DNA of 64,000 bases. Origin: a virus. The stretch is from the IMG/VR virus record IMGVR_UViG_3300008108_000067, positions 1-64,000 of that record. One strand, 5' to 3'. Position numbers and translations under genes: made by a program. Below the pieces are notes generated by a model. That model had not been told where the DNA came from, did no database searches, and worked only from the letters and a program-made list of their open reading frames with translations. Numbering within the stretch: position 1 is the first letter of the stretch; each line of letters opens with the position of its first letter. Positions 2,014-63,311 of this stretch are shown here, in pieces.

Positions 2014-2368
2014 TAATAAACTGATAACAAGTTGCCCCAGGATCTCGAACATAGTAGTCGTAATATGTACCACAACAGTAACCAGTATATGGTATGTCGG
2101 AGCAGGGTCCGCTAAATGTTTCTCCTACTGAGTAGTCAGCGGAGCAACTTGTGTATGCACATCCAAGATTGTTTATTGAAAATCCGCAAGCACCATTCCC
2201 GGTGGTTGCTACAAACTGACCACTACCGTTACACGAACCAGCCAACACAGCGCCATTACCTGGACAATAATTTGCGGTAATTGATGCAGTAGTTGGTGAC
2301 GGGATTCCATTTTTAATATATCGTAAATCATGTCTGATATTAATTGAATATGATGGTGGTGAAATCAA
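1988..2368 (-). CDS. Cysteine-rich small protein, possible fibre-tip extension
   Basis: 126 residues with 12 cysteines, in motifs such as CPGNG, GACGF, CAYTSC and GYCCGTYYDYY, plus many Gly, Ser and Tyr. I do not recognise the family; it looks like a disulfide-bonded or metal-binding extracellular module. It overlaps the last 29 nt of the RCC1-like fibre gene in another frame. There is no ATG or GTG near the beginning: the first possible start is TTG at 2368 with no ribosome site, and an in-frame TGA lies just upstream. Translation may therefore rely on coupling or on a frameshift out of the fibre gene, which would append it to that protein. The stop codon sits inside a 13-bp hairpin. Confidence 0.5.
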   Translation of the reverse strand: MISPPSYSINIRHDLRYIKNGIPSPTTASITANYCPGNGAVLAGSCNGSGQFVATTGNGACGFSINNLGCAYTSCSADYSVGETFSGPCSDIPYTGYCCGTYYDYYVRDPGATCYQFISRDVSACG

Positions 2369-7635: not shown

Positions 7636-7645
7636 CTATAAATAG
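7636..7645 (-). promoter_or_regulatory. Late-promoter-like element (CTATTTATAG)
   Basis: The coding strand reads CTATTTATAG, 31 nt before the ATG at 7604, in the gap after the 201-residue structural gene. Confidence 0.5.
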
Positions 7646-10821: not shown

Positions 10822-10831
10822 CTATAAATAG
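10822..10831 (-). promoter_or_regulatory. Late-promoter-like element (CTATTTATAG)
   Basis: The coding strand reads CTATTTATAG, 22 nt before the tail tube start, in the 61-nt gap between sheath and tube genes. Confidence 0.5.
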
Positions 10832-13536: not shown

Positions 13537-13546
13537 ATTATAAATA
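13537..13546 (-). promoter_or_regulatory. Late-promoter-like element (variant, TATTTATA core)
   Basis: The coding strand reads CTATATTTATAATA across this site, 29 nt before the start of the coiled-coil gene that leads into the sheath operon. Confidence 0.45.
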
Positions 13547-16037: not shown

Positions 16038-16047
16038 CTATAAATAG
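16038..16047 (-). promoter_or_regulatory. Late-promoter-like element (CTATTTATAG)
   Basis: The coding strand reads CTATTTATAG, 29 nt before the neck gp13-like start and directly after the capsid terminator. This order (terminator, element, gene) is the best support for promoter function. Confidence 0.6.
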
Positions 16048-19626: not shown

Positions 19627-20310
19627 TTATTTCATATTCTTAGCTACATAATTTATTGCTACTTTTCGTACGTTTGAATCTTGCGAATATCCCAATGCAC
19701 TCTTGACCAAAATATCTCTGCCGGTTTGTGGATTCTTAATACGATGTTTTAATAAATCTTTTAGTCGTATTTGTTTCGTTGGTGTCTCACCAGTTTTCTT
19801 GGTATCCTTTTCTTGAGCTTGCTGTACTACCAATTTTGTTTGCGGATACTTTGTAAGTAGTGTTTTAACTGCCTTTACATTTTTGGGAGCATCATCTACG
19901 AATACAATTCTGTCAAATCCATCATTGATATGTTTTTCAATGTACCGTGCTTTTGCCATTGGATCAGAGTTACCCAAAGCAGCAATAGTAATACCAGAAG
20001 TAATTCCTTGTAATTTAAGAAATTTTGCAATAGGTTTGGTGTGACCACGAGCTGTGAGTACAACTATTTTATCAGCTTTCTTTTGGTCAACGACTTTCTT
20101 TAATAAGTCTGTATATTTTTTGATAGGACGAGGATTTTTTAATTGTTCAAACTCCGAAAAATCAAATGTATCACCATCTTGCTTTTCATATGCAGCGTAT
20201 TCCGCTGGTGATATTGTTCTTCGTTTACCGTCCTTATCAATGACAATAACCCTAGCGTCAGTATGCACTAGGGTATCATCAAAGTCCGTAATATATGCCG
20301 TTTTTCCCAC
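19627..20310 (-). CDS. HAD-superfamily phosphatase with a C-terminal tag module
   Basis: 227 residues starting at a GTG (20310) with no clear ribosome site, 4 nt after the previous stop. HAD motifs: motif I DFDDTL (nucleophile Asp9, Asp11), motif II TAR (about 86-88), motif IV VDDAPKN (Asp139, Asp140). These fold types remove phosphate from nucleotides, sugars or nucleic-acid ends; the cap region (about 25-70) is acidic. Residues 181-226 (KDLLKHRIKNPQTGRDILVK then SALGY) are a separate module that also ends the 950-residue fusion at 31830. That shared end suggests a common destination or partner, perhaps the capsid. Substrate is unknown; a 5' or 3' nucleic-acid phosphatase is plausible but unproven. 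Confidence 0.75.
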   Translation of the reverse strand: MGKTAYITDFDDTLVHTDARVIVIDKDGKRRTISPAEYAAYEKQDGDTFDFSEFEQLKNPRPIKKYTDLLKKVVDQKKADKIVVLTARGHTKPIAKFLKLQGITSGITIAALGNSDPMAKARYIEKHINDGFDRIVFVDDAPKNVKAVKTLLTKYPQTKLVVQQAQEKDTKKTGETPTKQIRLKDLLKHRIKNPQTGRDILVKSALGYSQDSNVRKVAINYVAKNMK

Positions 20311-20798: not shown

Positions 20799-21179
20799 CT
20801 ATTTCTCCGAATACATTTCAGGATACAAATATCTAAATTTACGTAGTAATGTACCTGCCATTGCGTTGGCTTCATTTTCAATTTCAGAACCGTCTGTACC
20901 GTCTAGTTCTTTTTGTTCTTCACGTTGTTTGTGATGAACCAATTCATGCGCAAGTGTTCGTAATGTGTCAACCATGTGTCTACCATTTTTGACAATTACA
21001 ATTTCATCATTATCTGGTTGGTATGTACCAAATGTAAGATGTTGTTTGGAATAATCACTACCTACCATTTTAATTTTGGCAGGTAGTGATTTGAGTTGTA
21101 ATTCCTTTGCTGTAAACTTTACAAACTCATTTACTATATTTTTGTTGTAAACTTCGTTTAGTAAAGTTTTTAATTGCAT
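20799..21179 (-). CDS. Zinc metalloprotease-like protein (HExxH)
   Basis: 126 residues. HELVH at 78-82 with ENEANAMAG around 101-109 (Glu103 as likely third zinc ligand) is the minigluzincin pattern. The core domain, including the strand EIVIVKNGRH before the active-site helix, is small and complete. The first nine residues MQLKTLLNE match the short N-terminal peptides of nearby genes and end in L-N-E, a gp21-type cleavage site, so the protein may be packaged in the head and delivered to the cell. The target could be a host protein or a head component. It starts 6 nt after the previous stop, with only a weak AGG upstream. Confidence 0.7.
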   Translation of the reverse strand: MQLKTLLNEVYNKNIVNEFVKFTAKELQLKSLPAKIKMVGSDYSKQHLTFGTYQPDNDEIVIVKNGRHMVDTLRTLAHELVHHKQREEQKELDGTDGSEIENEANAMAGTLLRKFRYLYPEMYSEK

Positions 21180-21468: not shown

Positions 21469-22056
21469 TTATTTTAACTCACCTAGGAAATCGTAGATGA
21501 GAGTATCAATACGAGAATAAGGTGTAATGATTTGAGTTCCCTTATTTTCGTTGATGAACGCACCATGTGTAGATGGGTTACTTACGATGTCAAAACAAAT
21601 AAGAGAAAAATCTTCACCAACTTCTACGGTGTTTTCTCCAATAGGTTTGACTGAACCCAATCCACGCGATGATACACCCAAACGAATATTATTCTTAATT
21701 AATTCACGAACAATATTACCGGACGGAGTAGATAAAATTTCAATATTACCCTTCACATCCGCGCCTTCGAACCAAAGGTCTGTGACGTTACAACAAACAT
21801 TTTTTAGATTTACAACTGGGCTTTCTGGGTGGTCTAATTCACCCAGAGCTCGTCGTTGTGTAACGAAATTATTTTTATATACCATTGCTTCACGTGCCAA
21901 AATATCCTTTGGATAAATTCGACCATTTTGATTTTTATGATCTGCACGTTGTAGTACCACATCTTTCAAAACCAATGGTTTTGAAATGTCGGAAGCTTCG
22001 GTTAATAATTTACTGTCATAAGAAATGACGTTATATTCTACTAGTAGTGATTGCAT
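21469..22056 (-). CDS. 21: Prohead core protease (gp21-like, Peptidase S80)
   Basis: 195 residues from ATG 22056, preceded by AGAGGA at 7 nt and one base after the previous stop; the TTG at 22098 is rejected. Signatures are NQNGRIYPKDILAREAM, LGELDHPESP with catalytic His76, and GVSSRGLGS with the catalytic Ser at 129-130. T4 gp21 has 212 residues. It sits in the scaffold, digests gp22 and trims gp23 and internal proteins after (L/I)xE, and finally cuts itself. Its own N-terminus SLLVE contains such a site (L5-V6-E7), like the self-cleavage site of T4 gp21, and LTE20 is a second one. Confidence 0.95.
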   Translation of the reverse strand: MQSLLVEYNVISYDSKLLTEASDISKPLVLKDVVLQRADHKNQNGRIYPKDILAREAMVYKNNFVTQRRALGELDHPESPVVNLKNVCCNVTDLWFEGADVKGNIEILSTPSGNIVRELIKNNIRLGVSSRGLGSVKPIGENTVEVGEDFSLICFDIVSNPSTHGAFINENKGTQIITPYSRIDTLIYDFLGELK

Positions 22057-22057
22057 C

Positions 22058-22552
22058 TTATTGTCCTCTAATTTCACGAATTCGAGTAGCGATACCAAGG
22101 AGTTTTGCTTCCAACTTTAATAATCCTTGTTGGGTACGTTTCCACAGTTGTTCACTTGTAATTCCCGATTCGTTTTTTAAACGAGCGTTCATTCTAATAA
22201 CTCGTTCAACTTCATTTAAATTTTTATTTAACTGAGATATTGCGTCAGCAATTTTCTTGTGTGGTGACTTTGTATCATCATTTCTATATTGATAATATTT
22301 GTTCTCTGCTAATTCGCGTGTCACCACTTCCATCTTATCTGCTGGACGGTTTGCATCTTTTTCACCCTTGGGTGTGAGTTTATATCCAGTTTGATTTGCT
22401 AGATGCTTTGCTCTATCTACATTTGTCTTTTTATTACCACGAAATGCCATAGGAGTTAGATAACCAGCAACCATGCCAGTTGTTGACATTTCATCCAATT
22501 CTTTCTTAATCAGTTCACGGATAGTTTGACGAAGCGCTTCTTTTTTGTCCAT
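22058..22552 (-). CDS. Helical head-region protein of unknown function
   Basis: 164 residues, mostly helical and basic. The N-terminus (KKEALRQTIRELIKKELDEM) is followed by STTGMVAGYLTPMAFRGNKK, a Gly/Thr-rich strip like that seen in other phage head-region proteins, and a C-terminal helix pair (ISQLNKNLNEVERVIRMNAR). GAAGAG lies 6 nt before the ATG, overlapping the previous stop region. Being directly upstream of the protease and downstream of the portal suggests a prohead core component. I do not know its T4 counterpart; positionally, gp67/68 lie here in T4. Confidence 0.55.
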   Translation of the reverse strand: MDKKEALRQTIRELIKKELDEMSTTGMVAGYLTPMAFRGNKKTNVDRAKHLANQTGYKLTPKGEKDANRPADKMEVVTRELAENKYYQYRNDDTKSPHKKIADAISQLNKNLNEVERVIRMNARLKNESGITSEQLWKRTQQGLLKLEAKLLGIATRIREIRGQ

Positions 22553-27010: not shown

Positions 27011-27372
27011 TACTTTAAGAACTTCAACTTATAAATTGTGGAATTCACCAATCCAGAAATTTCATCTACGATATTATTGAGGTCACCATCTTGTGGCAAT
27101 CCCTTGCGAACACTATCAATATAGGTTGATAATCCAGTAAAATACTTTACTATTTCATCACCTTCGAAGTATTGCTTTTGTGGAGTATATCCACGAATAA
27201 TACCATAACGACCTTGGCAGGTTTCTGCGTACTTATCTACCAAATCTACGATATCATCATAGTATTCATTCAATGCCTTGTGAGCGGCATATGATGAAGT
27301 TTGTAAGTGGAAGATGTGTGCTTGGTCACGACTATTGAATAGTGTGGACAAAAACTTTGCTACGGTTCCCAT
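27010..27372 (-). CDS. DUF5856-like, Dps/ferritin-like helical protein
   Basis: 120 residues, all helical. RDQAHIFHLQTSSYAAHKAL then NEYYDDIVDLVDKYAETCQG resembles DUF5856 and, more distantly, the first two helices of Dps or ferritin-like proteins (H-x(2)-T-x-SYAxHxAL and a D/E-rich second helix). If the fold is right, the His and Glu/Asp residues could bind iron or oxidise it; no ferroxidase activity can be claimed. GGAG precedes the ATG, which overlaps the previous stop by one base. It sits in the candidate internal-protein cluster. Confidence 0.55.
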   Translation of the reverse strand: MGTVAKFLSTLFNSRDQAHIFHLQTSSYAAHKALNEYYDDIVDLVDKYAETCQGRYGIIRGYTPQKQYFEGDEIVKYFTGLSTYIDSVRKGLPQDGDLNNIVDEISGLVNSTIYKLKFLK

Positions 27373-28019
27373 TACATTGCTCCAGCGTCAGAGGCTGGTT
27401 GCTCCTTTTGTCCGTATTCGTGATAACTTGTATTTGCTTGGTCCAAGTTATTTTCTGCCACTGCGATATGGTCTTGAATCCATGCTGGAATGTCCTTTTC
27501 GTCCATTCCAAGCTTACCCTTTAATTCGGTTGCGTGACGGATGATGGAGTCAAGAGTTTTAGTTGCCATTGAAACTTCGTGATCTTCACCTTCAGCACCT
27601 TCCTTCTTCATTGCCTTGCCGATTGCGTCACGACGAGCTTGTAAATACTTGTCGGAAGAGTCTTTATCTCCATCGTTATCAATGTCACCATCTTCTTTAC
27701 CAACTGGATCCATTGCTTCCAGTTGTGCGATTAATTCATCAAGTTTTGCAGATTGTTCTTCGGAGAGTTCAGTTTCTTCCTTGAGCTTCTTCAAGGTCAT
27801 AGCTAAACGAGCACGTTGGCCTAGCTTACCACCCTTTTCGGCAGCAGCCTTTAACTTACCGGCTGGGATTGGTTCATCTGCCGATACACCAAGTTGTTTC
27901 TTTAATGCACCTGGTTTCTTGATTGCTTGTTGAATCCACTTTTCTTCTTCGTTCATCGAACCAACTGGTTTGTTACCAATTGCTTTAATACCAGGTACTA
28001 ATCCCATTAATTTAATCAT
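27372..28019 (-). CDS. Modular head-region protein with Ca-loop and helical modules
   Basis: 215 residues made of short phage modules. After MIKLMGLVPGIK comes WIQQAIKKPGALKKQLGVSA with GKLGQRARLAMTLKKL (about 28-80), a basic helical unit common in phages. A Ca-loop-like unit follows, DIDNDGDKDSSDKYLQARRD (about 112-131), inside a module shared with the gene at 28036. A C-terminal helical unit reads LDSIIRHATELKGKLGMDEK then AWIQDHIAVAENNL. GGAG precedes the ATG. None of these modules has a known function; the composition suggests a structural or DNA-binding internal protein rather than an enzyme. Confidence 0.6.
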   Translation of the reverse strand: MIKLMGLVPGIKAIGNKPVGSMNEEEKWIQQAIKKPGALKKQLGVSADEPIPAGKLKAAAEKGGKLGQRARLAMTLKKLKEETELSEEQSAKLDELIAQLEAMDPVGKEDGDIDNDGDKDSSDKYLQARRDAIGKAMKKEGAEGEDHEVSMATKTLDSIIRHATELKGKLGMDEKDIPAWIQDHIAVAENNLDQANTSYHEYGQKEQPASDAGAM

Positions 28020-28035: not shown

Positions 28036-28518
28036 TTATAGGGAGGTTTGTCCCTTCTTTTTTGCTATTAAATACCGCTTATATAAATCTCTTTTTGCTT
28101 TCATCAACTTATCTGTTAAATCTACCTTTCCATCATTGTTGATGTCTGCGTCCTCTTGACCCATTGGATCACGACGAACGTGTGGATAATGTACTTCTTT
28201 CTTACCACTTCTCCATCCACCACCCATACTCTTGTACTTTTTTGCTGCCCATAAGTTAGCGTATGCTGATGGATAGACTTTAAACTTACGTTTTGCAGCT
28301 GCCTTGGCTGCAGCCCACTTTGATGGATTGGTTGGAATTGACTTTTCTAATAATGCGGAAAGTTCTTCCATTTTTTGTAGTCGTGGGTCTGCAAAGTCAC
28401 TTTCAGTTTCTTTATATCCACCCCACGGATAACCTTCATCTTGTTTGCAATCACAACCTTCGGTTTGCAAACAACCACAATCCTCAAAGATATATGAATA
28501 GTAATCCTTGTAATTCAT
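28036..28518 (-). CDS. Head-region protein with Ca-loop module
   Basis: 160 residues from ATG 28518 (MNYKDYYSYIFEDC), two bases after the previous stop, with GAAGG upstream; the extension to 28593 lies inside the preceding gene and is rejected. The N-terminus is Cys-rich and acidic (EDCGCLQTEGCDCKQDEG). A middle basic unit reads KWAAAKAAAKRKFKVYPSAY then NLWAAKKYKSMGGGW. The C-terminus DPMGQEDADINNDGKVDLTD then KLMKAKRD is the same Ca-loop module as in the gene at 27372. Function unknown. Confidence 0.6.
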   Translation of the reverse strand: MNYKDYYSYIFEDCGCLQTEGCDCKQDEGYPWGGYKETESDFADPRLQKMEELSALLEKSIPTNPSKWAAAKAAAKRKFKVYPSAYANLWAAKKYKSMGGGWRSGKKEVHYPHVRRDPMGQEDADINNDGKVDLTDKLMKAKRDLYKRYLIAKKKGQTSL

Positions 28519-29018: not shown

Positions 29019-30605
29019 TTATCCTAGTAACCACGATATATTTTCCTTCTTACCACCAATTTCCATTTCATATGGATTGTGTGTAACATGCTTATTTGTG
29101 TACACCATACCTTCTACACTATACCTTGTCTTGTCCAATGTTAACTTCGTCAGTTCTATACCCTCCTGGCGCAACCTGAGGGCGGTGTCCCGTACCCATA
29201 GACCTATACACAATGCCATCGTCAAGTCATCGTTATAACCAGATAATGCTTCTGGTCTACCGTTCTTCCAAATAAAAGTATCTAATTCGGCGCACATACG
29301 AGATGACCGAATAGTAAAACTATTTTCTAACATATATTCTTTTAATCGTGCGATAACCAACGGACGAGTTCTTTGCGAGGTGGTGAACCCAGGTACCATA
29401 TTTCGTTCTTCACGATAATACTTTCCGGTCATTTGATGCTCGACATCCACATATTGTAAATCTTTGGACATATAAAAGAGATTTTTATATCCTCGGTCTA
29501 TAACTTGTTGTATTGCGTTCCATCCTATACTACTATTTTCTGGGATGAGTAGTGCATCATTGTATTCTGTTGCGATGGACACCAACATATTACCAAACTG
29601 TTTGGTTTCTACCTTTCCTTTATATTCTGCCACTTGGGTTGACGTTTCTACATCAATCACATGAAATGCGGAATAGTCCTCACCATCTCCACGAGATACG
29701 TCAGCCGAAACAATATAGGATTTCCCGGATTGTGGGTACTCCCATATCCATAAGTTTCCATCAAACCCACCCTTACTAATAGGTTCTTTCACAAACGTGG
29801 ATTTGTAGAATTCAATAATTTCTGGTGGGACAACTGTATTACCTGAGAATATAAACGAGGCATCATGTTCTTGTGCTGCCTGCATTTCACCAAGAATTTC
29901 TGTTTGACGGTCACGCCATGCCTGGTCACGTTCTGGATGTACTTGCCAATCCAACAAGATTGGATTAAATTCGTTTGCTTGACTTTCTGCTTGTTGCCAC
30001 ATCTTGTGGAAGAAGTTACCCACACCGTTTGGAGTGGAAATAAGAATAGCTTTTCCACCCGTGGATAACGTACTTGATGCTGCCGTCCAGATAATGTCGG
30101 CGTTATCAATAAATGCACACTCGTCAAGAATCAATAGAGACAATGCTTCGGAACGTCCAGCGTCTTTACTACTTGCCACAGCTTTAATCTGTGACCCGTT
30201 GGTAAATTGTAATGACAGTTTATTATCTGTTAATATTTCACCACGTAACCACACAGGAAGGTTTTGATGCATAAAACGAACTTTGGTTACTAAGTTTTTT
30301 GCAGTTTCTTGCTTGGTTGCGATAACAAGAATATTCTTGTCTTTGTGAAACAACATCAACCACAACGCATACCCCGCAACTAATGTAGAGAAACCTAACT
30401 GACGCCCTTTAAGTACAATGTTATATCGGTTTTCTTCAAACTCTCCCATCGCCTTTGCTTGGTATGGATATAAGTCAAACAACACCCGACCACGAATCGG
30501 GTGTTGAATATACGAATATTTAGATAAAAAGTACTCAGGCTGGAGTGCGCACTTTTTATATTCTTCTTTAATACGTTCACGTAACTGTTGTGCTGTTGTA
30601 TTCAT
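29019..30605 (-). CDS. 17: Terminase large subunit (gp17-like)
   Basis: 528 residues (T4 gp17 has 610). The N-terminal ATPase has Walker A KGRQLGFST (66-74), Walker B LLILDE (157-162, Asp161 and Glu162) and the coupling motif STPNG (190-194). The C-terminal RNase H-like nuclease starts at SADVSRGDGEDYSAF with Asp302 as first metal ligand. It packages DNA into the prohead and cuts the concatemer. AGAGG precedes the ATG by 4 nt. No obvious small terminase subunit (gp16) was found next to it. In T4, gene 17 sits beside 18; here it is upstream of the portal cluster. Confidence 0.95.
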   Translation of the reverse strand: MNTTAQQLRERIKEEYKKCALQPEYFLSKYSYIQHPIRGRVLFDLYPYQAKAMGEFEENRYNIVLKGRQLGFSTLVAGYALWLMLFHKDKNILVIATKQETAKNLVTKVRFMHQNLPVWLRGEILTDNKLSLQFTNGSQIKAVASSKDAGRSEALSLLILDECAFIDNADIIWTAASSTLSTGGKAILISTPNGVGNFFHKMWQQAESQANEFNPILLDWQVHPERDQAWRDRQTEILGEMQAAQEHDASFIFSGNTVVPPEIIEFYKSTFVKEPISKGGFDGNLWIWEYPQSGKSYIVSADVSRGDGEDYSAFHVIDVETSTQVAEYKGKVETKQFGNMLVSIATEYNDALLIPENSSIGWNAIQQVIDRGYKNLFYMSKDLQYVDVEHQMTGKYYREERNMVPGFTTSQRTRPLVIARLKEYMLENSFTIRSSRMCAELDTFIWKNGRPEALSGYNDDLTMALCIGLWVRDTALRLRQEGIELTKLTLDKTRYSVEGMVYTNKHVTHNPYEMEIGGKKENISWLLG

Positions 30606-30613
30606 AATACCTC

Positions 30614-31249
30614 TTATTTGACTACAAGGACTCCCGATACTACACCGACTCCGATACCAACCAAAAATGACATTTTACGACTTGGTAACTTGATACCAAA
30701 CATACGGTTGGGATTTTTTGGTGCTTGTGGGATATTAATAACTACTTTTTGTAAACTATCCCGTGATGTTGTAAGTAATAAAATAGCGTTATCTTTGTTT
30801 TTTAATGCTCGTTCCAACTCAGATACTTGCGATGCTTGGGTTTCAATTGTAATTTCTTGTTGTGCAATAATAGAATCTTTCACTGGTAGTATTGCTCGTG
30901 CCAATTCCAGTGTGTCTGTTATTGTTTTCGACATTGTTGCCGCTACAGTTTTTAAATTAGTAGTGGATGTTCGAAGTTCAACAACTTGTGACCCCAGAAC
31001 TTTTGCACGTGACTCCGCCGCACGAGCTTCATTTTCTTCTATTGTAATTTGTGTTTTTAAACTATCTGCAAAATGTATAGCAGAATCAGCTTGTGCTTGA
31101 AACTTTTTATATTCCGCTATATACTTGTCCATTTCATCTTGCTTAGCAGATGTTGTAACACAATACGATAATGATGCAATTACCGATATTATTACGATAG
31201 ACTTAGTTGTTTTCAGTATATGCGGGATCACCAAATTTACCCGTTTCAT
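30614..31249 (-). CDS. Coiled-coil membrane protein of unknown function
   Basis: 211 residues. A hydrophobic segment near the N-terminus (SIVIISVIASLSYCV, about 17-31), a long coiled coil (about 36-165, e.g. EEDARAAESRAKVLG-type heptads), and a Gly/Val-rich second hydrophobic segment at the end (LVGIGVGVVSGVLVV). This could be an envelope-spanning lysis protein of spanin type or an assembly protein, but neither is certain. ATG 31249 has CGGAGA 5 nt upstream even though it lies 47 nt inside the preceding gene. It sits directly before terminase. Confidence 0.55.
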   Translation of the reverse strand: MKRVNLVIPHILKTTKSIVIISVIASLSYCVTTSAKQDEMDKYIAEYKKFQAQADSAIHFADSLKTQITIEENEARAAESRAKVLGSQVVELRTSTTNLKTVAATMSKTITDTLELARAILPVKDSIIAQQEITIETQASQVSELERALKNKDNAILLLTTSRDSLQKVVINIPQAPKNPNRMFGIKLPSRKMSFLVGIGVGVVSGVLVVK

Positions 31250-31820
31250 CGAATTCTCCGGCTTCGACCTTTATTAAATGGTCTTTGAGTTTTTGTATTT
31301 CTTCTTCTAAATCTCTTCGAACAGTAGTTAAATCAACATTCCATTTTTCAATCATCAAAATCTTTTCTTGGTCTGCATGAATAAATTCTGGTTGTGATAG
31401 ATTTTCGTGGTAATTTTGAAGTTCTTGTATTCTATCTTTTACCCAGGCAATATGATTTTGTTTACCTTTTTCTACAATTGTTTCTACCCATTTACCCTGA
31501 CGTTTTAATTCCATCTCTTCTCTTTCTATACAATTATAACAAACACCACGTTTTTTATAAGCTTTTAGATGAACACCATTCAAGGGAGTGTCGCACTTTG
31601 GACACCACCACGGCGTTTTAAAACCATCCAGTTTAGTGACCGATTGGATTAATCCATTTTTCCTAGTCCACTTTGTACCATTTACATCCACCCACACTTC
31701 ACCTTCTTTTCGTTCAACTTGTTTCGGTGTCCAACCAAACGTAAGTTTTTGTTCCTGCTTGTTCATTACTTCACCAATTTTTCTTCTTACGTTCTTCATT
31801 GCATCTTCATTTGTTGCCAT
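31203..31820 (-). CDS. Zinc-ribbon, coiled-coil protein before terminase
   Basis: 205 residues. A four-cysteine zinc ribbon (CPKC and CYNC about 20 residues apart, around residues 73-96) lies after a small beta domain (EVWVDVNGTKWTRKNGLIQS). A coiled coil follows (KDRIQELQNYHENL, DLTTVRRDLEEEIQKLKDHL). Its position two genes upstream of terminase makes a packaging or recognition role possible, but it does not look like T4 gp16. GAGAGG lies 5 nt before the ATG. Confidence 0.6.
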   Translation of the reverse strand: MATNEDAMKNVRRKIGEVMNKQEQKLTFGWTPKQVERKEGEVWVDVNGTKWTRKNGLIQSVTKLDGFKTPWWCPKCDTPLNGVHLKAYKKRGVCYNCIEREEMELKRQGKWVETIVEKGKQNHIAWVKDRIQELQNYHENLSQPEFIHADQEKILMIEKWNVDLTTVRRDLEEEIQKLKDHLIKVEAGEFDETGKFGDPAYTENN

Positions 31821-31829
31821 AGTAACCTC

Positions 31830-34682
31830 TCAGTTTGATATTGCTTTTTTAACTATACTCATTGCTGCGGTATATACTGGTTCTTTTTTATCGTATTTTA
31901 ACGCGGTTCCTACAAATATATCTCTATCCGTTTTTGGATTTCTAACTTTCTGTTTTAATACCTTTGCCAAAGTTTGACGTTTTGCCGGTGGTACGTTTGA
32001 TACCATATCTTTGGGTGATTTTGTCGGTGTAACTTTTGGCTTTTGTTTCATTTTTGGAGCAGTTACATCTTTACCATGTGTCTGCGTCAACTTCAAAGCT
32101 TCCTCTGAATCTGTTGTTACTTTAACAATTTTATCAAAGATTTTTTTGTCAAATTTACCGTATACTTTGGTAAATATTTCTTGCTTTGCTCTATCTGTTA
32201 TGTTTGGATTTCCCATAACAGACCGAAGTTGTGTACCACTAATATTTTTACCATCAATTTGTAGTTGCATCTCAGGAGCAACTATAAAGTATCCTTGATC
32301 TGCGTATCCTTTGAGGTCTTTTTCTGGTACTTCTTCGTATGGTTTGAAATATTTTCCTCCCAACCGGTCAGCATCTTTTTGACTGACTGCTGTAACGTAC
32401 ACCGCGTCTGGTGGTAATTTACTTAATACTTCCGATGGTGCGTATGGATTTTTAACTTGTATTACGTTATCGTCTGGTATTCCAAACATACGAGTCATAA
32501 TTTCTTTTTTGTCTTTGAACCCGAACGGTGATTTGGTTGCATCGGTTTTATCGCTCGATGCGATATATACATTATCTTTACCAAATTTCTTTACCATTGC
32601 TTGATAGATACTATAATGTCCAGCATGAAATGGTTGAAATCTTCCGGTAAATATAGCAGCAATTTTACGTTCCCCAACAGGTGTGGGTTCTGTCTTTTGC
32701 GCTTCCGGTTCTTTCTTTGGTTCTTCTACTGGTGCTTCTTCGGCTTTACCCTTCGCAAACTTCAAAGTTCCTAAAATTTGATTTACTGGTGCGAATGTAC
32801 CTGTAAATTTATATGGTTTGCCGTTATATATAAACACCAATCCTTCTGATGGTACGACATTATCAATACCAATATCGTCCAATCGTTCAATTTGTGTTTG
32901 TAGTTTTGCAAGTTTATTTATATCGTCTGTATCTTGTAGAGACTTAATAGTATCTAATAATTCTTTCTTCAACGATGCAGTTAATTCTGGATTGTTTGCC
33001 GATAACGTATTGGTAACACGACGAAGTGTATCAGCTCCTACTTTCAGAAAAATACTTTCTAATGGGCGTGTAACAGCTCGTTCCGAATTCGTTAATTCAG
33101 TTGCTTCAAATTGCCTAAACCATTTTTTGGTTTCTGGATCTTCAAAGTCCTTAACTCCAATAGCTTTCTTGTCTCCCGTTGCCCATCGTTTAACCAATCC
33201 ATTAAATTGTTCTTCCGATAATTCCAATCCTTGTGTTTCTACTTGTCTGGTAAGTTCTCTTTCCCACCATGCTATTTTATAATCTTCCAAGGTATTTTTA
33301 TCGTCAAGATCAAATTCTTGTTGTAGTCGTGTCAATGCTGCACCATACTCTTGCATTTTTTCTTTATTACGAGCAGTATCTGCGTCGCTAAATGCAATAC
33401 TACGTGGTCCAGATATACCAAACGTTTTTTGTTGCTGTGCGTTTACTTTTGTAATTTGATCAGAAAGTTTTTTACTATCCTCTATATCACGACCAATTTC
33501 GTTTCCTTCTTCGTCGTATTTAACAGTTCCATGAAATACCAAAACACTCTTGTCGTATGGTATAACGTTCTTTGTGTCTGGAAATATTATCTCAACGTTC
33601 ATAAATTTTGAACCGTCAGCAAACATCTGATCACGTTCTTCTTGTGGTAAAGCTTGAATAGCTTTAGTGATATCATCCGCAGCACCACCAAAAGCTTTTT
33701 CAACGTTACCTCGTCCGGCAAACATCTGTCGTAAATCTGCCGCAGGTAGTGCGTTTTTTGCTTTATTTTTTACTTGGCCTTTATTACGAGCAAAAACAAC
33801 TTGACCATCTCTAACAGAAAACATGATATTTTGTCCATCAAGTTTTTCTGTGACAGGTGCTTCCGCATCTAACCCACCTACCAATCCACGTTTAATCATT
33901 TCTTTTACATCAGAAAACTTTAATGTATCATCTTCATACGGATGTGCTAAATGTCCTGCCGCACCACCCTCAGATATTAATTGCCATGGACCATTAGGAA
34001 CATTACCTTCATATAGTTCAGAAAGATAAACATATTCTAAGCCTTCATTCTTTTTATCTCGTCCGTGGTCTTTACGAGCAAGTTTCCAGTTACCATTTTT
34101 TGCACCATTGGGATGATGTACATCATGGTTTTTCATTTTTGATTTGCCGTACTTCTTAACTGCCTTTTTGCGGTCACGGTTACGGGCAACACGGTCATCC
34201 TGAGTCTTTTTAAGGTAGTTACGAACTTTTTCGGGATGACGGCGATTGTATCTCCGCATTCGTTCCGTGCTTGATAGTGCTTCATTATTGATGAATTCAT
34301 CATCATGCTCCGGTCCAATAGAGTAAGGGTATGCAAATGCATTATCTTTATTTTGTGGTTTAATTTCATCCACTCCACCTTCACCTGCACCTGTCTCTCC
34401 ACCAGTATCACCGCTGTCTGTTGGTGGTGTTGTTGGTTCTTCTGCTGGTTGTTCACCAGTTTTTATTACACGAGGATATAATGGATAGAAAAATCCATAA
34501 TTTTTTATTTTTTCTTTTGCTTTTTTACGCTTCTTCTTCATCTCATCCATTGAATCTGTGTGATTAATGGTTAGTTCACCAACAAGTTCTGGTGCCAACT
34601 TCGCAACCAAAAAATTATGTTGGTCAACATATTCATTTTCATTCAATATATTTTCAAATAAATTATTTATTGGATTACTCAT
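31830..34682 (-). CDS. HNH-like, nucleotide ligase and nucleotidyltransferase fusion
   Basis: 950 residues with at least four parts. (1) Residues 1-120: linker; the start INNLFENILNE could be a targeting peptide. (2) About 135-215: basic region with DVHHPNGAKNGNW and DHGRDK, a His-Me-finger (HNH)-like pattern. (3) About 270-640: a covalent nucleotidyltransferase (ligase) core with motif I EKLDGQN (Lys280), ARNKG (299-302), MNVEIIFP (Glu364), EGLVF (Glu613) and YKFTG (Lys625). (4) 672-840: a cytidylyltransferase/NMNAT-like domain with GRFQPFHAGH (680-689) and ISGTQLR (814-820). Residues 906-950 are the tag module also ending the HAD protein at 19627. It likely joins or caps nucleic acid and transfers a nucleotide; the substrates are unknown. 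The start overlaps the previous stop (ATGA). Confidence 0.8.
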   Translation of the reverse strand: MSNPINNLFENILNENEYVDQHNFLVAKLAPELVGELTINHTDSMDEMKKKRKKAKEKIKNYGFFYPLYPRVIKTGEQPAEEPTTPPTDSGDTGGETGAGEGGVDEIKPQNKDNAFAYPYSIGPEHDDEFINNEALSSTERMRRYNRRHPEKVRNYLKKTQDDRVARNRDRKKAVKKYGKSKMKNHDVHHPNGAKNGNWKLARKDHGRDKKNEGLEYVYLSELYEGNVPNGPWQLISEGGAAGHLAHPYEDDTLKFSDVKEMIKRGLVGGLDAEAPVTEKLDGQNIMFSVRDGQVVFARNKGQVKNKAKNALPAADLRQMFAGRGNVEKAFGGAADDITKAIQALPQEERDQMFADGSKFMNVEIIFPDTKNVIPYDKSVLVFHGTVKYDEEGNEIGRDIEDSKKLSDQITKVNAQQQKTFGISGPRSIAFSDADTARNKEKMQEYGAALTRLQQEFDLDDKNTLEDYKIAWWERELTRQVETQGLELSEEQFNGLVKRWATGDKKAIGVKDFEDPETKKWFRQFEATELTNSERAVTRPLESIFLKVGADTLRRVTNTLSANNPELTASLKKELLDTIKSLQDTDDINKLAKLQTQIERLDDIGIDNVVPSEGLVFIYNGKPYKFTGTFAPVNQILGTLKFAKGKAEEAPVEEPKKEPEAQKTEPTPVGERKIAAIFTGRFQPFHAGHYSIYQAMVKKFGKDNVYIASSDKTDATKSPFGFKDKKEIMTRMFGIPDDNVIQVKNPYAPSEVLSKLPPDAVYVTAVSQKDADRLGGKYFKPYEEVPEKDLKGYADQGYFIVAPEMQLQIDGKNISGTQLRSVMGNPNITDRAKQEIFTKVYGKFDKKIFDKIVKVTTDSEEALKLTQTHGKDVTAPKMKQKPKVTPTKSPKDMVSNVPPAKRQTLAKVLKQKVRNPKTDRDIFVGTALKYDKKEPVYTAAMSIVKKAISN

Positions 34683-36499
34683 AGTTGTGAACCTGAGAAG
34701 AAGGTAGGTGTTGAAATTATATCCAGATTTAGTGCATTGTTGTTCAAATCAAACAACTCTGTTTTGAATACCAAACTAGATGTAATCTGTGAATTGTTTG
34801 GGATTGTAATTGTAACTTCGTCTGGACTAAATGCATATTCTTCTGCAACTTTCAAAGAAACATTTGCAAATTGCCAAAATCCGTTCGATACTACAAATCG
34901 TAACCCAGCACTACCACTCTGTGTAATTCTAAAATTAAATGTCTTTTGTGGAAAATATGCTACCTTTTCCGTGGTTGAGATAGAACCTATCTTTTGTCCA
35001 AGTTTATCTCTACCAATTACCGCCGATCCTGTTAAATAAATATCTACATTGTAGTTACTTGCTGTAAAAGCGGCGGATTGTGAAGTGGTATATACGAAAC
35101 TGTCTAGTTTCAAGGTATATTCGGATGTTGGGAACAATCCAAATTCTTGTCGTGTACCGATGAAATAACTACTTGCCGTAGTCAACGCATAGACAGCATC
35201 CAGCATATGACTGTCATCACGGGGTAAAGTAAATTGGTACGACGAAGATACCGCGTCATCGTAATAGGACGGATCAGGGATTGCTGATCCTGTCATCCGA
35301 TATCCATACCAACTAGAAGATATTATTTGATTAGTACTGAATACCCCAATCGGTTGTTCTCTGTTTGCCAGTCCTGTTGAACTTGTTATTAGTAATTCAC
35401 CAACAACCGTTGGCGTATCAGCAATAAATTCAAAGTCGGTTACTATTGCAGCTTCTCTGTTTGATGCCTTAATTCTAAATATTTGTCCGCTAACTGTATC
35501 TAGATTAATTAATCGTAACTTTGCAAATGAACGTATATTTGTTGGTAATATTCTAACACTTTCACTTACATAGTAATAGTTTATAGATCCTGTTATAGAT
35601 GATGCCGTACGGACATATGTAGTATTTGATGCGGTGTATAAACTTTCACCCAATTCGTACTGCCCATTATATAATGTAGGTATACTTAGAATATTTCCAT
35701 CAGTTGAACTTGTAATGTTTATATCAGTAAATGATTTAGATGCATTTAAATGACTGAGTGGTAAGTTCAACGATGCCGTGTGATTTTCCAACACTGTGTA
35801 CGATTCCGTAGTTGCCGGTATTGTACCCAAATATTTTCTTTTCTGTAATGTAACACTTCCTGTGATTTTTGGAGTTAGATGAAATGATCTAAATTGAAAC
35901 GTGTTACAATCATTTACAACTATGTATCCCCGTTGCTTGTTGAGTACACTCTTAGGTTTTAATACTATATTAGAAACTGCTTGATTAATTATTGACTGAC
36001 TCAACAACGAACCCGTTAATAACAATTCGTTTGTTATTATCTGCGGTTGTACTTTTAATCGAATTGGCGTTATGTTTTGGTTTTTTGGTTCTATGATAAT
36101 TTTCTTCTGCCAACTTACATTTGAACGACCTTTCCAATCACTTGGTATTGGATTTCCGTTTGCCAATTGTCTAGCGGTTCCCACAATAGTAAGAATTGCT
36201 GCACCACGAGCTGAGTTTTCATAAACTTCGACAACTATAACTCTAGCTCCACCTTCTGCAAAGTTTTTGATAGCTTCCACATACATACTTTTTCCATTGA
36301 CATCAAGTAGTTCAATAAAAATGTTTGTATTTGGTTCTAACAATCCCGTTCCTGTTATAAGGAATGCGTTACGTCCACCAGTAAAATAACTATTTAATTG
36401 TTTTATATTAAAATATACAGATTCCTGTGCGGTATCCTTCACCAACACAGGAATCTTGTCTAAATTTTGTTTAAATAATTCTTTTCTAGTTCTTGGCAT
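34679..36499 (-). CDS. Large beta-rich virion structural protein
   Basis: 606 residues, beta-rich with many Ser/Thr/Asn, e.g. NAFLITGTGLLEPNTNIFIE, ARVIVVEVYENSARGAAILT, and short SSITGSI and TASSYF stretches typical of virion proteins here. I do not recognise the family; it may be a head or tail decoration, a fibre attachment or a large neck protein. GAGAG precedes the ATG and a promoter-like element lies 25 nt upstream, so it begins the operon that includes the 950-residue fusion and terminase. Its stop overlaps the next start by ATGA. Confidence 0.6.
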   Translation of the reverse strand: MPRTRKELFKQNLDKIPVLVKDTAQESVYFNIKQLNSYFTGGRNAFLITGTGLLEPNTNIFIELLDVNGKSMYVEAIKNFAEGGARVIVVEVYENSARGAAILTIVGTARQLANGNPIPSDWKGRSNVSWQKKIIIEPKNQNITPIRLKVQPQIITNELLLTGSLLSQSIINQAVSNIVLKPKSVLNKQRGYIVVNDCNTFQFRSFHLTPKITGSVTLQKRKYLGTIPATTESYTVLENHTASLNLPLSHLNASKSFTDINITSSTDGNILSIPTLYNGQYELGESLYTASNTTYVRTASSITGSINYYYVSESVRILPTNIRSFAKLRLINLDTVSGQIFRIKASNREAAIVTDFEFIADTPTVVGELLITSSTGLANREQPIGVFSTNQIISSSWYGYRMTGSAIPDPSYYDDAVSSSYQFTLPRDDSHMLDAVYALTTASSYFIGTRQEFGLFPTSEYTLKLDSFVYTTSQSAAFTASNYNVDIYLTGSAVIGRDKLGQKIGSISTTEKVAYFPQKTFNFRITQSGSAGLRFVVSNGFWQFANVSLKVAEEYAFSPDEVTITIPNNSQITSSLVFKTELFDLNNNALNLDIISTPTFFSGSQL

Positions 36500-36524: not shown

Positions 36525-36534
36525 ATATAAATAG
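36525..36534 (-). promoter_or_regulatory. Late-promoter-like element (CTATTTATAT)
   Basis: The coding strand reads CTATTTATAT, 25 nt before the structural gene start, in the 38-nt gap after the Mre11-Rad50 gene. It separates the replication block from a late operon. A short imperfect stem (CGTGA/TCACG) brackets the site. Confidence 0.5.
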
Positions 36535-36537
36535 TTA

Positions 36538-39500
36538 TCACGATTGGATATAGGAGAATCCGTCCTCTCTTTTTATCTCAATTAAATTGTCCACCATATC
36601 TCTAGCCGCATCCAAATGACTGATGACAATAAGGAAATCGAATTGAGTTTTGAGAATACCGAACATCGTATGCATTGAACTTAAATTTTCCGCATCAAGA
36701 GTACCCAATCCTTCATCAATAATCATAAAGTTAGACTTTGGTAAGTTTGAAGCGTTCATCAATGCCACACGGATAGCCAAACTACTGATGAACCGTTCCA
36801 TACCCGACGAGTTTTCCAACGGCCAGATACGGTCATAATCGTAGTTTAATTTACCCACGATGTTTTTTCCATCCACTTCGAGAGAAATAGTAAAGTCCAC
36901 TATTTGTGACAGAATATTGTTAATTTCTGCCTCAATATTTGGTATAGCTTTACTCATCAAGTCGTACGGAATACCATCACGACCAACAGCTTCCATATAA
37001 TACTTATATGCTTCGTAAGTATTCTCCAACTCTTCGGCTTCCTTAATCTGGTTCATAATATCGGTCTTGGTGGCTTCCAGTACCTTGACCTCACCGTGAA
37101 GTTCACGGATAACCTTTTCCATATGGTCAGCCTTCTTCTTTGCCGATGCAATATCGTGTTCGACAAAAGAGATTTGCTTATCAATATCTACATTATGTTC
37201 GATATTTTCTTTGTTCAACCGATGAAGTTCAATATCATTTTCTATTTGTTCCCGCTTACGGTCACACTTTTCGATGTTGGTAATCAACTTCTGGATTTCC
37301 AGTTCAACTCCACTTGCATTCTTTTGAAGCTGTTGGACTTCGGTTTGTAACTTTTCATAACTTACACAAAGATTGACCTTCTCGACCAACGGTTCCATCT
37401 GCTCCTTAATTGTGGTAAGGGCATCTTCTTGGTCAAATCGGAGTCTATCCAACTGTACCAGTTCTGCGTTTACTTGGTCCTTATCAGCGATAACTGACTT
37501 ATTGTTTTCTACACACACCAAACAGTCTGAATTGTACTTGTACCCAGATAACTTCTGCTGGAACTTCTCCTTCTCAGTAATCTTGGAAACGGTAAGTTTC
37601 AATGCAGATGACCCCTTGTTAAATAATCCAGTTAATCTCTCGTATTCACTTACCGCCTGCTTTAGTTCTGGAATATTTGCCTCTACCACCCGATGTGTCT
37701 TTTCAGTGATGTTCTGGTTGAGCAGTTTTAGTCGTTCCTCTGCTTCCGTTTTTTGTTGTTCGTAGGTTGCAGACAATTCTATGGTCTTGTCTTTGTTTGA
37801 TAAGAGTGTATCAATGTCTAGTTCAATATTTGGAACAGGACGTTTCTTATCTTGGAATTCCTTTAATTTTTCATAAAAAGTTTCTTGTTCTTGTTTGAGC
37901 CTTGTAAATATACCTTCAATCCGTTCATGCTCCTCACGAGTCGTATCCAACTTGGTCTGAGTATCCGATAAAGTTTGGGTAAAATCTATCTTCTTAAACT
38001 TACGAAGTGCCCCAGAAATTTCCTTCATCTCATCATTTGCTGTGTCACATAACTTATCAAAGATACTTAATCCCATAAACTGAATGAGAAGGTCTTTACG
38101 TTCAGAATGTGACTTATCAATAAACAATGCGTTACTAGTTTGACCACTTAATGCAGTCAAGACGAAATCTTCATAACTACCAACATAATTACGAATGTTG
38201 GCATTAGTATCACGACGGTCCTCACCATTGAGTGAAGTATGTGTTCCGTCCTCGTTTTCCTTCCAGAACAAGACATCTACCTTGACATCACCATTCTTCT
38301 TACGAGTTCCAGTTCTACGGATGTAGAATATTTCATCGTTGATTTCAAACTTTAATTGACAGGTGAATTCGTTTTTACGGTTGTTCATGATGTGGTCACC
38401 ACGGAACGCACGTGGTGTCTTGTCGTAAAGACAGAAGATGAGTGCATCCATTGAAGAACTCTTTCCCGTTGCGTTCTGAGCAAACACTCCGTATATTCCC
38501 TTCATCTTCCCAAAGTTAATCACATTGTCCTCACCATAGGAGAACATATTAGAAAACTTTAATTGAATAGGACGCCAATGTACATTTCTAGAATGATCAT
38601 CGTGACTAATTTGTGCATTGAGATTTTTATTAACATCCAAAATTTTTGTCATCAATGGACGGTCAATTGTATTATCATACTGACGTTCCAACCAATCTTG
38701 AATGAGTTGGTTCTGTATGTTTAGATTGTTTACATCAACAATATCTGATCCACTCTTAATTTTGTCACGATTGGTATTATCGGTTCTGGACTTGTTAATG
38801 CTTAGTTCAATAATATTATATTGTTTGCGTAGTGTTGCTACTACCTTCTTAACACCAGAATTATCAAGAGTTCCCGTAAAAAGTCGCATGCGAACATTTT
38901 TTGGAACATCCGTAGGGAATGGTAATTTTCCATTCTTAACTTCCAACGTATAATATCCATAATTATTTTGTAATGACTTGAATTCATGTGTGCATGCACT
39001 GACATCCCACATACACCAACCGTGATTATCTACCGTTTCTCCGTGGTTCTGCTGAATGAGTGAGGATGCGTACACTATAATTGGTTTCTTTGCGTGTACA
39101 TCTCGTTCTTGTAGTATCTGGTATTTGTGGATGTCACCCAACAGTACCATATCAAATCCGTTGAACAATGATGTTTCAACGTGACGGTTAGTAATTACGT
39201 ACCGTGCATCGGTTTGTGCACCGTGTACTGGTCCGTGGTATAATGCAATCTTACGGCGACCCTCACAATCCTTTACGGAAGGCCACTGTTCTCTATCATC
39301 CAAAATGGAAAATACAGCAAAATCAGTATCACCAACTTGATAGATACCAGAATGTTTTAGATAGTGTAATTGTTCGTGGTTAATACTTTTGATTAGTGGT
39401 GTCAAACTATCCAATCGGTTCATATTGGACAGATTCAAATCGTGATTACCAGCAATCACTAAGGTGGGAGCTATGTTAGCTAGGTTCTTTAAAAACTCCG

Positions 39501-39717
39501 TTGCCATCATCACCATTTCAGGACTCATGTCCGTCTTTGCGTGCAGAATATCACCAGCAACAACAATAACCGAGTCAGTCAAATCTTCTTGACGTAACTG
39601 GTTATATAGTGTTTCAAAACATTCCCGATATTCATCGTGTCGTTTAAATAGTCGTATATGAATATCCGCAAGGTGTACAATTTTATTAAGCTTGTTAATA
39701 CCAGCGATATGTGTCAT
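36538..39717 (-). CDS. 47-46: Fused Mre11-Rad50 recombination nuclease (gp47-gp46 type)
   Basis: 1059 residues in one chain. Residues 1-370 are the Mre11/SbcD phosphoesterase: HLADIH (Asp18, His20), VVAGDILH (Asp56 region), GNHD (91-93), YHGPVHG (His161) and LLGDIHK (Asp195, His197). From about 385 comes Rad50/SbcC: Walker A AQNATGKS (413-420), long coiled coils with a zinc hook CLVC (732-735), a degenerate signature SSGMERF (about 970) and Walker B FMIIDE (997-1002). T4 makes these as separate gp47 and gp46. The complex processes DNA ends for recombination-dependent replication and degrades host DNA. The start overlaps the primase stop (ATGA). Confidence 0.95.
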   Translation of the reverse strand: MTHIAGINKLNKIVHLADIHIRLFKRHDEYRECFETLYNQLRQEDLTDSVIVVAGDILHAKTDMSPEMVMMATEFLKNLANIAPTLVIAGNHDLNLSNMNRLDSLTPLIKSINHEQLHYLKHSGIYQVGDTDFAVFSILDDREQWPSVKDCEGRRKIALYHGPVHGAQTDARYVITNRHVETSLFNGFDMVLLGDIHKYQILQERDVHAKKPIIVYASSLIQQNHGETVDNHGWCMWDVSACTHEFKSLQNNYGYYTLEVKNGKLPFPTDVPKNVRMRLFTGTLDNSGVKKVVATLRKQYNIIELSINKSRTDNTNRDKIKSGSDIVDVNNLNIQNQLIQDWLERQYDNTIDRPLMTKILDVNKNLNAQISHDDHSRNVHWRPIQLKFSNMFSYGEDNVINFGKMKGIYGVFAQNATGKSSSMDALIFCLYDKTPRAFRGDHIMNNRKNEFTCQLKFEINDEIFYIRRTGTRKKNGDVKVDVLFWKENEDGTHTSLNGEDRRDTNANIRNYVGSYEDFVLTALSGQTSNALFIDKSHSERKDLLIQFMGLSIFDKLCDTANDEMKEISGALRKFKKIDFTQTLSDTQTKLDTTREEHERIEGIFTRLKQEQETFYEKLKEFQDKKRPVPNIELDIDTLLSNKDKTIELSATYEQQKTEAEERLKLLNQNITEKTHRVVEANIPELKQAVSEYERLTGLFNKGSSALKLTVSKITEKEKFQQKLSGYKYNSDCLVCVENNKSVIADKDQVNAELVQLDRLRFDQEDALTTIKEQMEPLVEKVNLCVSYEKLQTEVQQLQKNASGVELEIQKLITNIEKCDRKREQIENDIELHRLNKENIEHNVDIDKQISFVEHDIASAKKKADHMEKVIRELHGEVKVLEATKTDIMNQIKEAEELENTYEAYKYYMEAVGRDGIPYDLMSKAIPNIEAEINNILSQIVDFTISLEVDGKNIVGKLNYDYDRIWPLENSSGMERFISSLAIRVALMNASNLPKSNFMIIDEGLGTLDAENLSSMHTMFGILKTQFDFLIVISHLDAARDMVDNLIEIKREDGFSYIQS

Positions 39718-44260: not shown

Positions 44261-44270
44261 ATATAAATAT
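44261..44270 (-). promoter_or_regulatory. Late-promoter-like element (ATATTTATAT)
   Basis: The coding strand reads ATATTTATAT, 31 nt before the start at 44229, in the gap after the giant baseplate gene. It has the shared TATTTATA core but lacks the leading C. Confidence 0.45.
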
Positions 44271-62236: not shown

Positions 62237-63311
62237 TTAGAGAAGGTGCGGTCTTGCCTCACTAATTCCAGCGTTAGTGACTACAACATACGAGGGACAA
62301 AATTCATCAATACTCATTGCTCCTGCGTATGATAAGGCCGACCGTAATCCATCAGTTAATCCATCCACGATAAACTTTGCTTTACCCTTGAATGGAACAA
62401 TGGTGGATTCACCCTCAACATTACGAGTTTTTTGACCGTGTATACTCTTTGTTTCCAAAGAAGCTGCTCCACGATATCTTTTATATAAACCATTTTGTTT
62501 TTCAATAATAGCCCCAGGCGCTTCCTTTGTTCCTGCCAAAAGCGACCCAAGAATTACCGAACTTGCTCCAACCGCCAACGCTTTAGCAATATCACCACTA
62601 TTACGAATACCACCACATGCAATAATAGGAACAGTTACTGCGTTTGACGTTTCCAACAATGACGTAACATTTGGTACACCAAAACCAGTTTTAATACGAG
62701 TAGTACACAATGAACCACCACCGATACCTACTCGAATTGCATCTGCTCCCCAGAATTCTAATTCTTCTGCTGCTTCTGCGGTTGCTACATTTCCTGCAAT
62801 AACGTCAATATGAGGAAAGTTATCTTTAATTTTGATGATAGCTTCACGGACAAACGAATGATGACCGTGGGCTACATCAATCAATATAACATTTGCACCA
62901 GCATTAATCAAGGCTTCTGTTCGTTGGAAATAATCTCCATTGGCTCCAACCGCTGCCATAATCTCCATTGGCTCCAACCGCTGCCATAACAGGAGTTGTT
63001 TTTCCTTCCCAAGTTCTATATATAGGCCCGTCCCATATAGCCATTTTTACATTTTGTACTTGTTCTGCTTGTTCTTCAATTGACATAAAACGATGAATAC
63101 ATCCTACACCACCCAATTCTGCCATTGCAATAGCCATTTCAGACTCACATACCGTGTCCATAGGTGATGCAATGAGAGGAACTCTAATACTATAATTAGT
63201 TGTTAATCTAGTAGTAAGGTCAATTTGTGACCGTGATTCAATATCCGAATACTGTGGTATCAGCTGGATATCATCATAGGTTAGTGCTTGTTTACCGTGT
63301 AATGGTATCAT
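62237..63311 (-). pseudogene. IMP dehydrogenase/GMP reductase-family gene broken by a tandem duplication
   Basis: Two frames together encode one TIM-barrel nucleotide oxidoreductase without CBS domains. The first part (ATG 63311) has TYDDIQLIPQYSDIESRSQI, PLIASPMDTVCESEMAIAMA and GGVGCIHRF. After MAAVGANGDY the frame is lost. The second part continues with VILIDVAHGHHSFVREAIIK, the Cys loop GGGSLCTTRIKTGFGVPN, GGIRNSGDIAKALAVGASSV and VEGESTIVPFKGKAKFIVDG. A 28-bp tandem duplication at 62933-62988 causes the shift; removing one copy restores about 348 residues, the size of GMP reductase. IMPDH versus GMPR cannot be settled: the EGxxxxVPFKG piece is GMPR-like, the ending VVTNAGISEARPHLL more IMPDH-like. 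It would adjust guanine nucleotide pools if active. Confidence 0.8.
62933..62988. repeat. Perfect 28-bp tandem duplication
   Basis: ATCTCCATTGGCTCCAACCG followed by CTGCCATA occurs twice without a spacer (62933-62960 and 62961-62988). The unit length is not a multiple of three, so it shifts the frame of the IMPDH/GMPR gene. Confidence 0.95.

Follow-up and report, generated by a model that had tools for sequence, protein, structure and literature searches.

A 950-residue fusion protein of a T4-like myovirus joins an RNA-ligase-like domain to a NadM-like nucleotidyltransferase (NTase) of the HIGH superfamily. From sequence comparison, it is tentatively read here, at somewhat less than even confidence, as an RNA-end (tRNA-end) repair enzyme with a NadM-like partner domain that would be packaged in the phage head and injected. 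The window analysed comprises 64,000 nucleotides (nt), positions 1 to 64,000 of IMGVR_UViG_3300008108_000067 (full virus record 90.9 kb), a T4-like myovirus as judged by gp17, gp20, gp21, gp23, the tail sheath and a fused gp46/47-like protein. The fusion gene (31830-34682, minus strand, marked (−) hereafter) is an intact open reading frame (ORF) of 950 amino acids (aa) starting at ATG, and the plus strand has many stops. ORF, translation and motif invariance delimit a leader, an HNH-like motif region, the RNA-ligase-like domain, the NadM-like NTase and a C-terminal (CT) module. The original prediction, made from this DNA alone, had described a four-part fusion; the single chain of ligase and NTase holds up and the HNH part is weakly supported, while a 58-aa CT module and a head-targeting-like leader had been overlooked. 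All motifs that it quoted are present: EKLDGQN at residues 279-285 (Lys280), ARNKG at 298-302, VEIIFP at 363-368, EGLVF at 613-617, YKFTG at 624-628, GRFQPFHAGH at 680-689, ISGTQLR at 814-820, and DVHHPNG/DHGRDK inside 187-210.

The covalent nucleotidyltransferase or RNA-ligase-like domain spans residues 235-645 (32748-33980, −). Over 41 diverse ligase domains, E279, K280, D282, G283, R299, N300, E364, E613, G614 and K625 are invariant, mapping to motifs I (E-K-x-D-G-Q), Ia (R-N), III (E), IV (E-G) and V (K). In motif I (EKLDGQN, 33828-33848, −) the E, K, D, G and Q are all without variation, and Lys280 is the predicted adenylylated lysine. The AlphaFold (AF2) model has a mean predicted local distance difference test score (pLDDT) of 84 for residues 226-660, and RNA/DNA ligases fill all of the top 24 ranks of its Foldseek comparison with PDB, led by the archaeal RNA ligase 2vug (E=2.3e-3) and followed by T4 Rnl2, tRNA ligase, T4 Rnl1 and a Naegleria ligase. 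When the homologs were scanned singly, 34/41 matched PF09414 RNA_ligase below the cut-off (best E=0.003), and any other family was matched by at most five. Direct sequence matches to T4 Rnl2, to a separate RNA ligase of phage Mel-JY01 and to a cyanophage GC71 protein were marginal (pairwise E 0.007-0.02), and the ligase profile found no ligase among PDB sequences, only chance-like matches. A helical insertion of ~180 residues separates motifs III and IV, and the family is therefore divergent. The domain shares covalent nucleotidyltransferase motifs I-V, and possibly the fold, with Rnl2/Rnl3/Rnl1 (T4 gp24.1; archaeal 2vug), but differs from them in the long insertion, the fused NTase and a score below the Pfam cut-off. 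It appears to resemble RNA ligases, in agreement with the ligase-superfamily core first proposed and with the structure prediction suggested as its check; membership of Rnl2 is not claimed.

The NTase occupies residues 672-855 (32118-32669, −). PF01467 is the sole Pfam family recognised in the fusion protein, and is above its cut-off (37.2 against 21 bits, E=4e-9, residues 677-820). The best matches of a profile of 29 homologs are the archaeal nicotinamide mononucleotide (NMN) adenylyltransferase MJ0541 (E=7e-9) and NadM-type enzymes (E=9e-8), and all 29 homologs match NCBIfam NadM models, at scores far below the equivalog cut-offs (~32 bits against 127-449). Fold matches are to NadD, PPAT and FAD synthetase, with best probabilities of 0.95-1.0. 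The adenylyl- or cytidylyltransferase domain foreseen in the original prediction is thus a HIGH nucleotidyltransferase by fold and NadM-like by sequence. In the 29-sequence alignment, covering the window's clade, HxGH is invariant and SxTxxR is kept with conservative variation. The domain has GRFQPFHxGH, S/NPFxF, GYxxxxPE and SGTxxR in common with NadM enzymes (MJ0541, NadM-Nudix), but the central, nicotinamide-site segment is left uncovered in the profile alignment to MJ0541, and there is no Nudix domain. By these comparisons NadM enzymes are the nearest solved relatives, specificity for NMN is putative, and the role of the NTase is the weakest link of the mechanism proposed below.

Relatives were found in 108 viral stretches in a first scan and in 304 in a second scan seeded with the homologous protein of Microcystis phage Mel-JY01, two sets that may overlap (individual relatives are cited by L number). 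Dozens of independent contigs encode the domains as one chain, syntenic with terminase and portal and in two domain orders, which rules out a fusion created by assembly, the outcome that the original prediction had considered fatal to it. Both ligase and NTase are present in nearly all of the 64 non-redundant full-length proteins, and EKxDGQN is kept in nearly all family members outside the 41-sequence alignment. Among the proteins scored as ligase-only, L090 has a visible but more divergent HIGH domain (GSFKPMTGGH...ISASTIR), L105 has its NTase on an overlapping upstream ORF, and the L047 and L091 genes are broken across frames; LR756500, a huge phage (L004, also numbered L092), is the only one with a stand-alone ligase. 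Sequence variation in the ligase parallels that in the NTase (Mantel r=0.92, 0/999 permutations, 69 proteins). Proteins with the ligase first form a single clade in the ligase tree, so that one swap of order suffices. Almost every family member has the ligase-NTase pair, whichever domain comes first, and the modules flanking it swap.

These variable modules are the HNH-like region, an M78-type metallopeptidase, PGDYG, a DUF5872-like domain, ParB_N, an AAA_33 P-loop kinase and a class-II CCA-adding enzyme. The kinase is fused in 14/64 of the non-redundant full-length proteins, and is encoded by a separate upstream gene in L166 and L168. The CCA-adding enzyme is fused in L088 and L093 (PolyA_pol, E=1.5e-29 and 4.5e-31), and the match of this domain to CCA-adding enzymes in PDB is solid (E=1.1e-32). 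No kinase or CCA enzyme was found elsewhere in the 90.9-kb record of the window's own phage. An M78-type domain lies between the HNH-like region and the ligase in L042-L062 and L080; in the window, an M78/IrrE-like HExxH metallopeptidase (HELVHH) is unfused (20799-21179) and begins with the head-targeting-like leader MQLKTLLNE. The CCA-adding enzyme, kinase and metallopeptidase, which had escaped the original prediction, point to RNA-end repair; repair in general was among the roles that it had offered.

A further candidate partner is linked to the fusion protein by the CT module (residues 890-948, NPxTGRxIxVxTALxYxKxHPxxKxA, 31839-32015, −). A HAD phosphatase-like protein (DFDDTL...LTARG...VFVDDAPKN), encoded by a separate gene between gp21 and gp23 (19627-20310, −), ends in the same module (E=8e-24) and matches phrog_415 'polynucleotide kinase' (E=7.9e-7); it had no match in the phage collection, and homologs occur in related records. 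In seven records searched, copies of the module are confined to the fusion protein, the HAD protein and one 297-aa ORF between them. The HAD protein, with its CT module in common with the fusion, is proposed as a 3'-phosphatase partner; in relatives kinase and CCA domains are fused directly. Two 496-aa ORFs (L181 and L182) are homologs of the HAD-CT protein with an extra middle domain that looks by eye like a Mom-type GNAT (DNA modification), and a CT variant with an insert (e.g. VKYKNPDGTEGEATVKTLLGYDKDHPGRKAA) is seen in other head-region proteins (L024:11268-11993, L009:11813-12373 and L081:9928-10455).

The HNH-like region (residues 137-213, 34044-34274, −) is among the most conserved parts of the protein, with a mean column identity of 70% in 40 homologs. 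Its HH and a later H are invariant, and the middle Asn is variable. It has no match in Pfam, among PDB sequences or in the phage collection, and the AlphaFold model is disordered there (pLDDT <50). An HNH nuclease thus finds no support from Pfam, PDB sequences or structure prediction, and the label first given to this region is weakly supported.

Location, leader and a putative promoter link the gene to head assembly. T4 loads head proteins by N-terminal propeptides of 10-19 residues, which gp21 cleaves after (L/I)xE (PMC9026906). The first 16 residues of the fusion protein (34635-34682, −), MSNPINNLFENILNE followed by N, resemble such a capsid-targeting leader, with ILNE ending at residue 15 and putative gp21 cleavage after LNE-15. 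In the family, 39/59 N-termini show (L/I)xE by residue 30 against ~11 expected, counts that are inflated by sequence kinship. The leader is strongest in the kinase/CCA group (13/15, e.g. MNKLTEWLTKPFLDE followed by N), and the N-terminus of the huge-phage protein L004 reads MKFLKSYEEFLNE followed by N. In the head region of the window, 12/25 proteins carry (L/I)xE among their first 25 residues against 5.5 expected (4/500 shuffle sets were as high), compared with 7/33 against 6.1 expected elsewhere in the window. The predicted processor of the leader, the prohead protease gp21, is encoded at 21469-22098 (−; Peptidase_S77, E=2.8e-26). Leader enrichment, the gp21 gene and head-gene synteny together make plausible the delivery by the virion that was originally suggested.

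The fusion gene is the second of its operon, which opens with a 606-aa ORF (34679-36499, −) whose stop codon overlaps the start of the fusion gene (ATGA). A late-promoter-like sequence, TATTTATA, precedes the 606-aa gene by 34 nt (36526-36533, −) and is conserved in ~30 relatives. It stands 18-40 nt ahead of seven gene starts, this one included, and 7/11 of its minus-strand copies sit within 60 nt upstream of genes, a space making up 5.5% of the window. Copies of the sequence (often CTATTTATA) preceding late genes are at 36526-36533, 44262-44269, 16039-16046, 13539-13546, 10823-10830 and 7637-7644 (all −). Its position and enrichment make it a putative late promoter in this group of phages. 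When reverse-complemented, TATTTATA corresponds to the T4 late box TATAAATA.

Downstream of the fusion gene follow a 205-aa Cys-rich ORF (31203-31820, −), a 211-aa ORF and the large terminase gp17 (29019-30605, −; PF03237 and phrog_2). The Cys-rich ORF is the immediate 3' neighbour of the fusion gene at almost every locus, and where the locus is long enough the terminase and then the portal gene (gp20) almost always come after it in that order. The gene had been placed between structural and terminase genes; the packaging-operon location is correct, but the gene is upstream of gp17 with two small genes intervening. Several other genes of the window may be recorded. A 1059-aa protein (36538-39717) appears to be a fusion of gp47 (Mre11-like) and gp46 (Rad50-like), with Metallophos and SMC/SbcC matches. 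A tail-region protein (2340-4532) has RCC1-like repeats (phrog 'regulator of chromosome condensation', E=4e-22). Two head-region proteins (27372-28019 and 28036-28518) have a Ca-binding-like IDNDGD-type motif in common, which is also found within the P-HM1 'possible cytitidyltransferase'; the protein at 27372-28019 matches the N-terminal stretch of phrog_764 'cytidyltransferase' and several families of unknown function. An IMP-dehydrogenase-like (GuaB) gene, recognised by eye at 62237-63311, is split into two overlapping frames (62237-62977 and 62904-63311), possibly by a frameshift or assembly error. No tRNA genes were found in a search of the window.

The one cultured close relative is Microcystis phage Mel-JY01, whose WWT39297.1 ('cytidylyltransferase like protein') likewise has a HIGH NTase and a ligase in a single chain upstream of the terminase. 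It differs in having the NTase first and no HNH-like region or CT module; its ligase is unannotated and identity is 33-38%. A more remote version is found in cyanophages. Against viral models, Foldseek matched the 'Cytidyltransferase-like' protein A0A0M6VVW4 of Synechococcus phage S-PM2 (E=3e-5, probability 1.0), a single chain of 591 aa. GenBank annotates this S-PM2 frame as two proteins, one hypothetical (T4-GC71) and the other a cytidyltransferase (T4-GC190); in P-HM1 the T4-GC71 and T4-GC190 genes are adjacent and overlapping. The GC71 protein has the same layout (TKWDGAP...GTKSVF...QGDLLF...PEGYV...IKLV) and a HIGH NTase partner in GC190, but the profile comparison of the ligase part is not significant and the HIGH motif is of the TTGH type. 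A total of 471 phage records, most of them from cyanophages, contain GC71-like sequences, so the ligase-NTase pair probably reaches far beyond the clade of the window, and in cyanophages has not been recognised as a ligase. Fusions of HNH with Rnl2 have been described (PMC7824862) and resemble the window protein in having an HNH-like part ahead of an RNA ligase, although the HNH is unconfirmed here. Injected polyvalent proteins (PMC5512222) are also similar: like them, the fusion and its relatives carry several unrelated enzymatic domains per chain, lie next to virion genes and have metallopeptidase and ParB-type partners. Phage NadM and NAD salvage are known (PMC9503650). In the literature searched, including these three papers, no report of a ligase-NadM-like fusion was found. 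What is new here is the recurrence of the pair with swapping modules, the leader, the CT module in common with the HAD gene, and the remote cyanophage version.

In the reading that we prefer, the protein would be a modular nucleic-acid end-repair enzyme built on the invariant ligase and NadM-like pair. It would be made late, together with the head genes, and carried by its T4-style leader into the prohead, where gp21 may clip the leader, to be delivered with the DNA. Once injected, and before the early genes of the phage act, it could rejoin RNAs that host defence nucleases have cut, tRNAs being the most likely substrate. Lys280 would accept AMP and hand it to a 5'-phosphate end for sealing, the HAD-CT protein would supply 3'-phosphatase activity, and a nicotinamide-type mononucleotide would probably be converted by the NadM-like domain into NAD+ or a related dinucleotide, which would feed repair or counter NADases.

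Several observations weigh against this reading. The ligase fold matches are individually weak, none being below E=0.001 in PDB and TM-scores being low, and PF09414 scores the window ligase at 13.8 bits, under its gathering cut-off of 27. About 40 marine-type copies of the NTase read GPHH or similar in place of HxGH. The clade with the NTase first and the HNH-like region second has no N-terminal leader, and many freshwater relatives have Asp replacing Glu at the putative cleavage site; in the T4 IPIII leader, Asp at position 10 inhibits processing yet permits targeting (PMC9026906). The CCA domain is present in three relatives only, and the nearest solved structure to the kinase, that of L-seryl-tRNA(Sec) kinase, is matched at E=0.002. 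The GC71/GC190 version adjoins replication genes rather than head genes. Lastly, near 67-71 kb the Mel-JY01 genome encodes an annotated RNA ligase apart from the fusion, as well as an AAA_33 kinase; the fusion is therefore not needed for ordinary tRNA repair, and must do something else, such as acting at once on entry.

Four other explanations were weighed. That the enzyme is expressed late and repairs RNA in the producing cell, unpackaged and with an incidental likeness to a leader, is unlikely. The leaderless clade and the unconserved Glu of several freshwater relatives would fit it, as would lengths of 950 to 2000 aa, large for head cargo; however, leader enrichment is specific to head-region and family proteins, and the CT module is confined to few head-block genes in the records searched. 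In T4, gp49 and gp30 trim and seal the branches and nicks of concatemeric DNA, and the ligase, with the HNH-like part as a nuclease, might do the same before or during terminase action. The strict synteny beside gp17 and gp20, the HH...H motif and the gp46/47-like recombination nuclease gene close upstream are in keeping with such a role, which is nevertheless unlikely, since homology favours RNA over DNA ligases, the fused CCA-adding enzymes work on tRNA, the HNH fold is unsupported and the NadM-like domain would be left unexplained.

The NadM-like domain could instead be the centre of the system, rebuilding NAD+ after attack by host NADases, with the ligase-like domain secondary. This is close to the role against host NAD depletion entertained in the original prediction, and draws on the NadM-like signature in all tested members and on the phage NAD salvage mentioned above. 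Every surveyed phage with NadM also has NadV (PMC9503650), but no NadV (PF04095) was found in 17 records searched, mostly fragments; HxGH is changed in the marine clade, the nicotinamide-site segment is unaligned, and ligase and NTase are conserved to about the same degree. A primarily NAD-directed function is thus distinctly unlikely. A structural or scaffold protein of the virion with decayed enzyme domains would agree with the head-operon location and with GPHH in part of the family, but is very improbable given the invariant catalytic residues in 41 ligase sequences, EKxDGQN in nearly all the others, and the retention of HxGH and SxTxxR throughout the clade of the window.

The preferred reading, head-packaged RNA-end repair, would join genes now annotated apart or not at all (cytidyltransferase, hypothetical ligase-like, HAD and kinase) in one modular RNA-repair system, probably head-packaged, across many uncultured T4-like phages, and the fusion suggests a role for the paired T4-GC71/GC190 genes of cultured cyanophages. 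A bolder and improbable form would have the head pre-loaded with an NAD-linked RNA ligase that recharges itself: the ligase domain would draw its AMP from NAD+, setting NMN free, and the NadM-like domain would re-adenylate NMN with ATP. If this were true, repair would be shielded from host NADase defence, and T4-GC71/GC190 would act alike, giving hundreds of 'hypothetical' and 'cytidyltransferase' genes a function.

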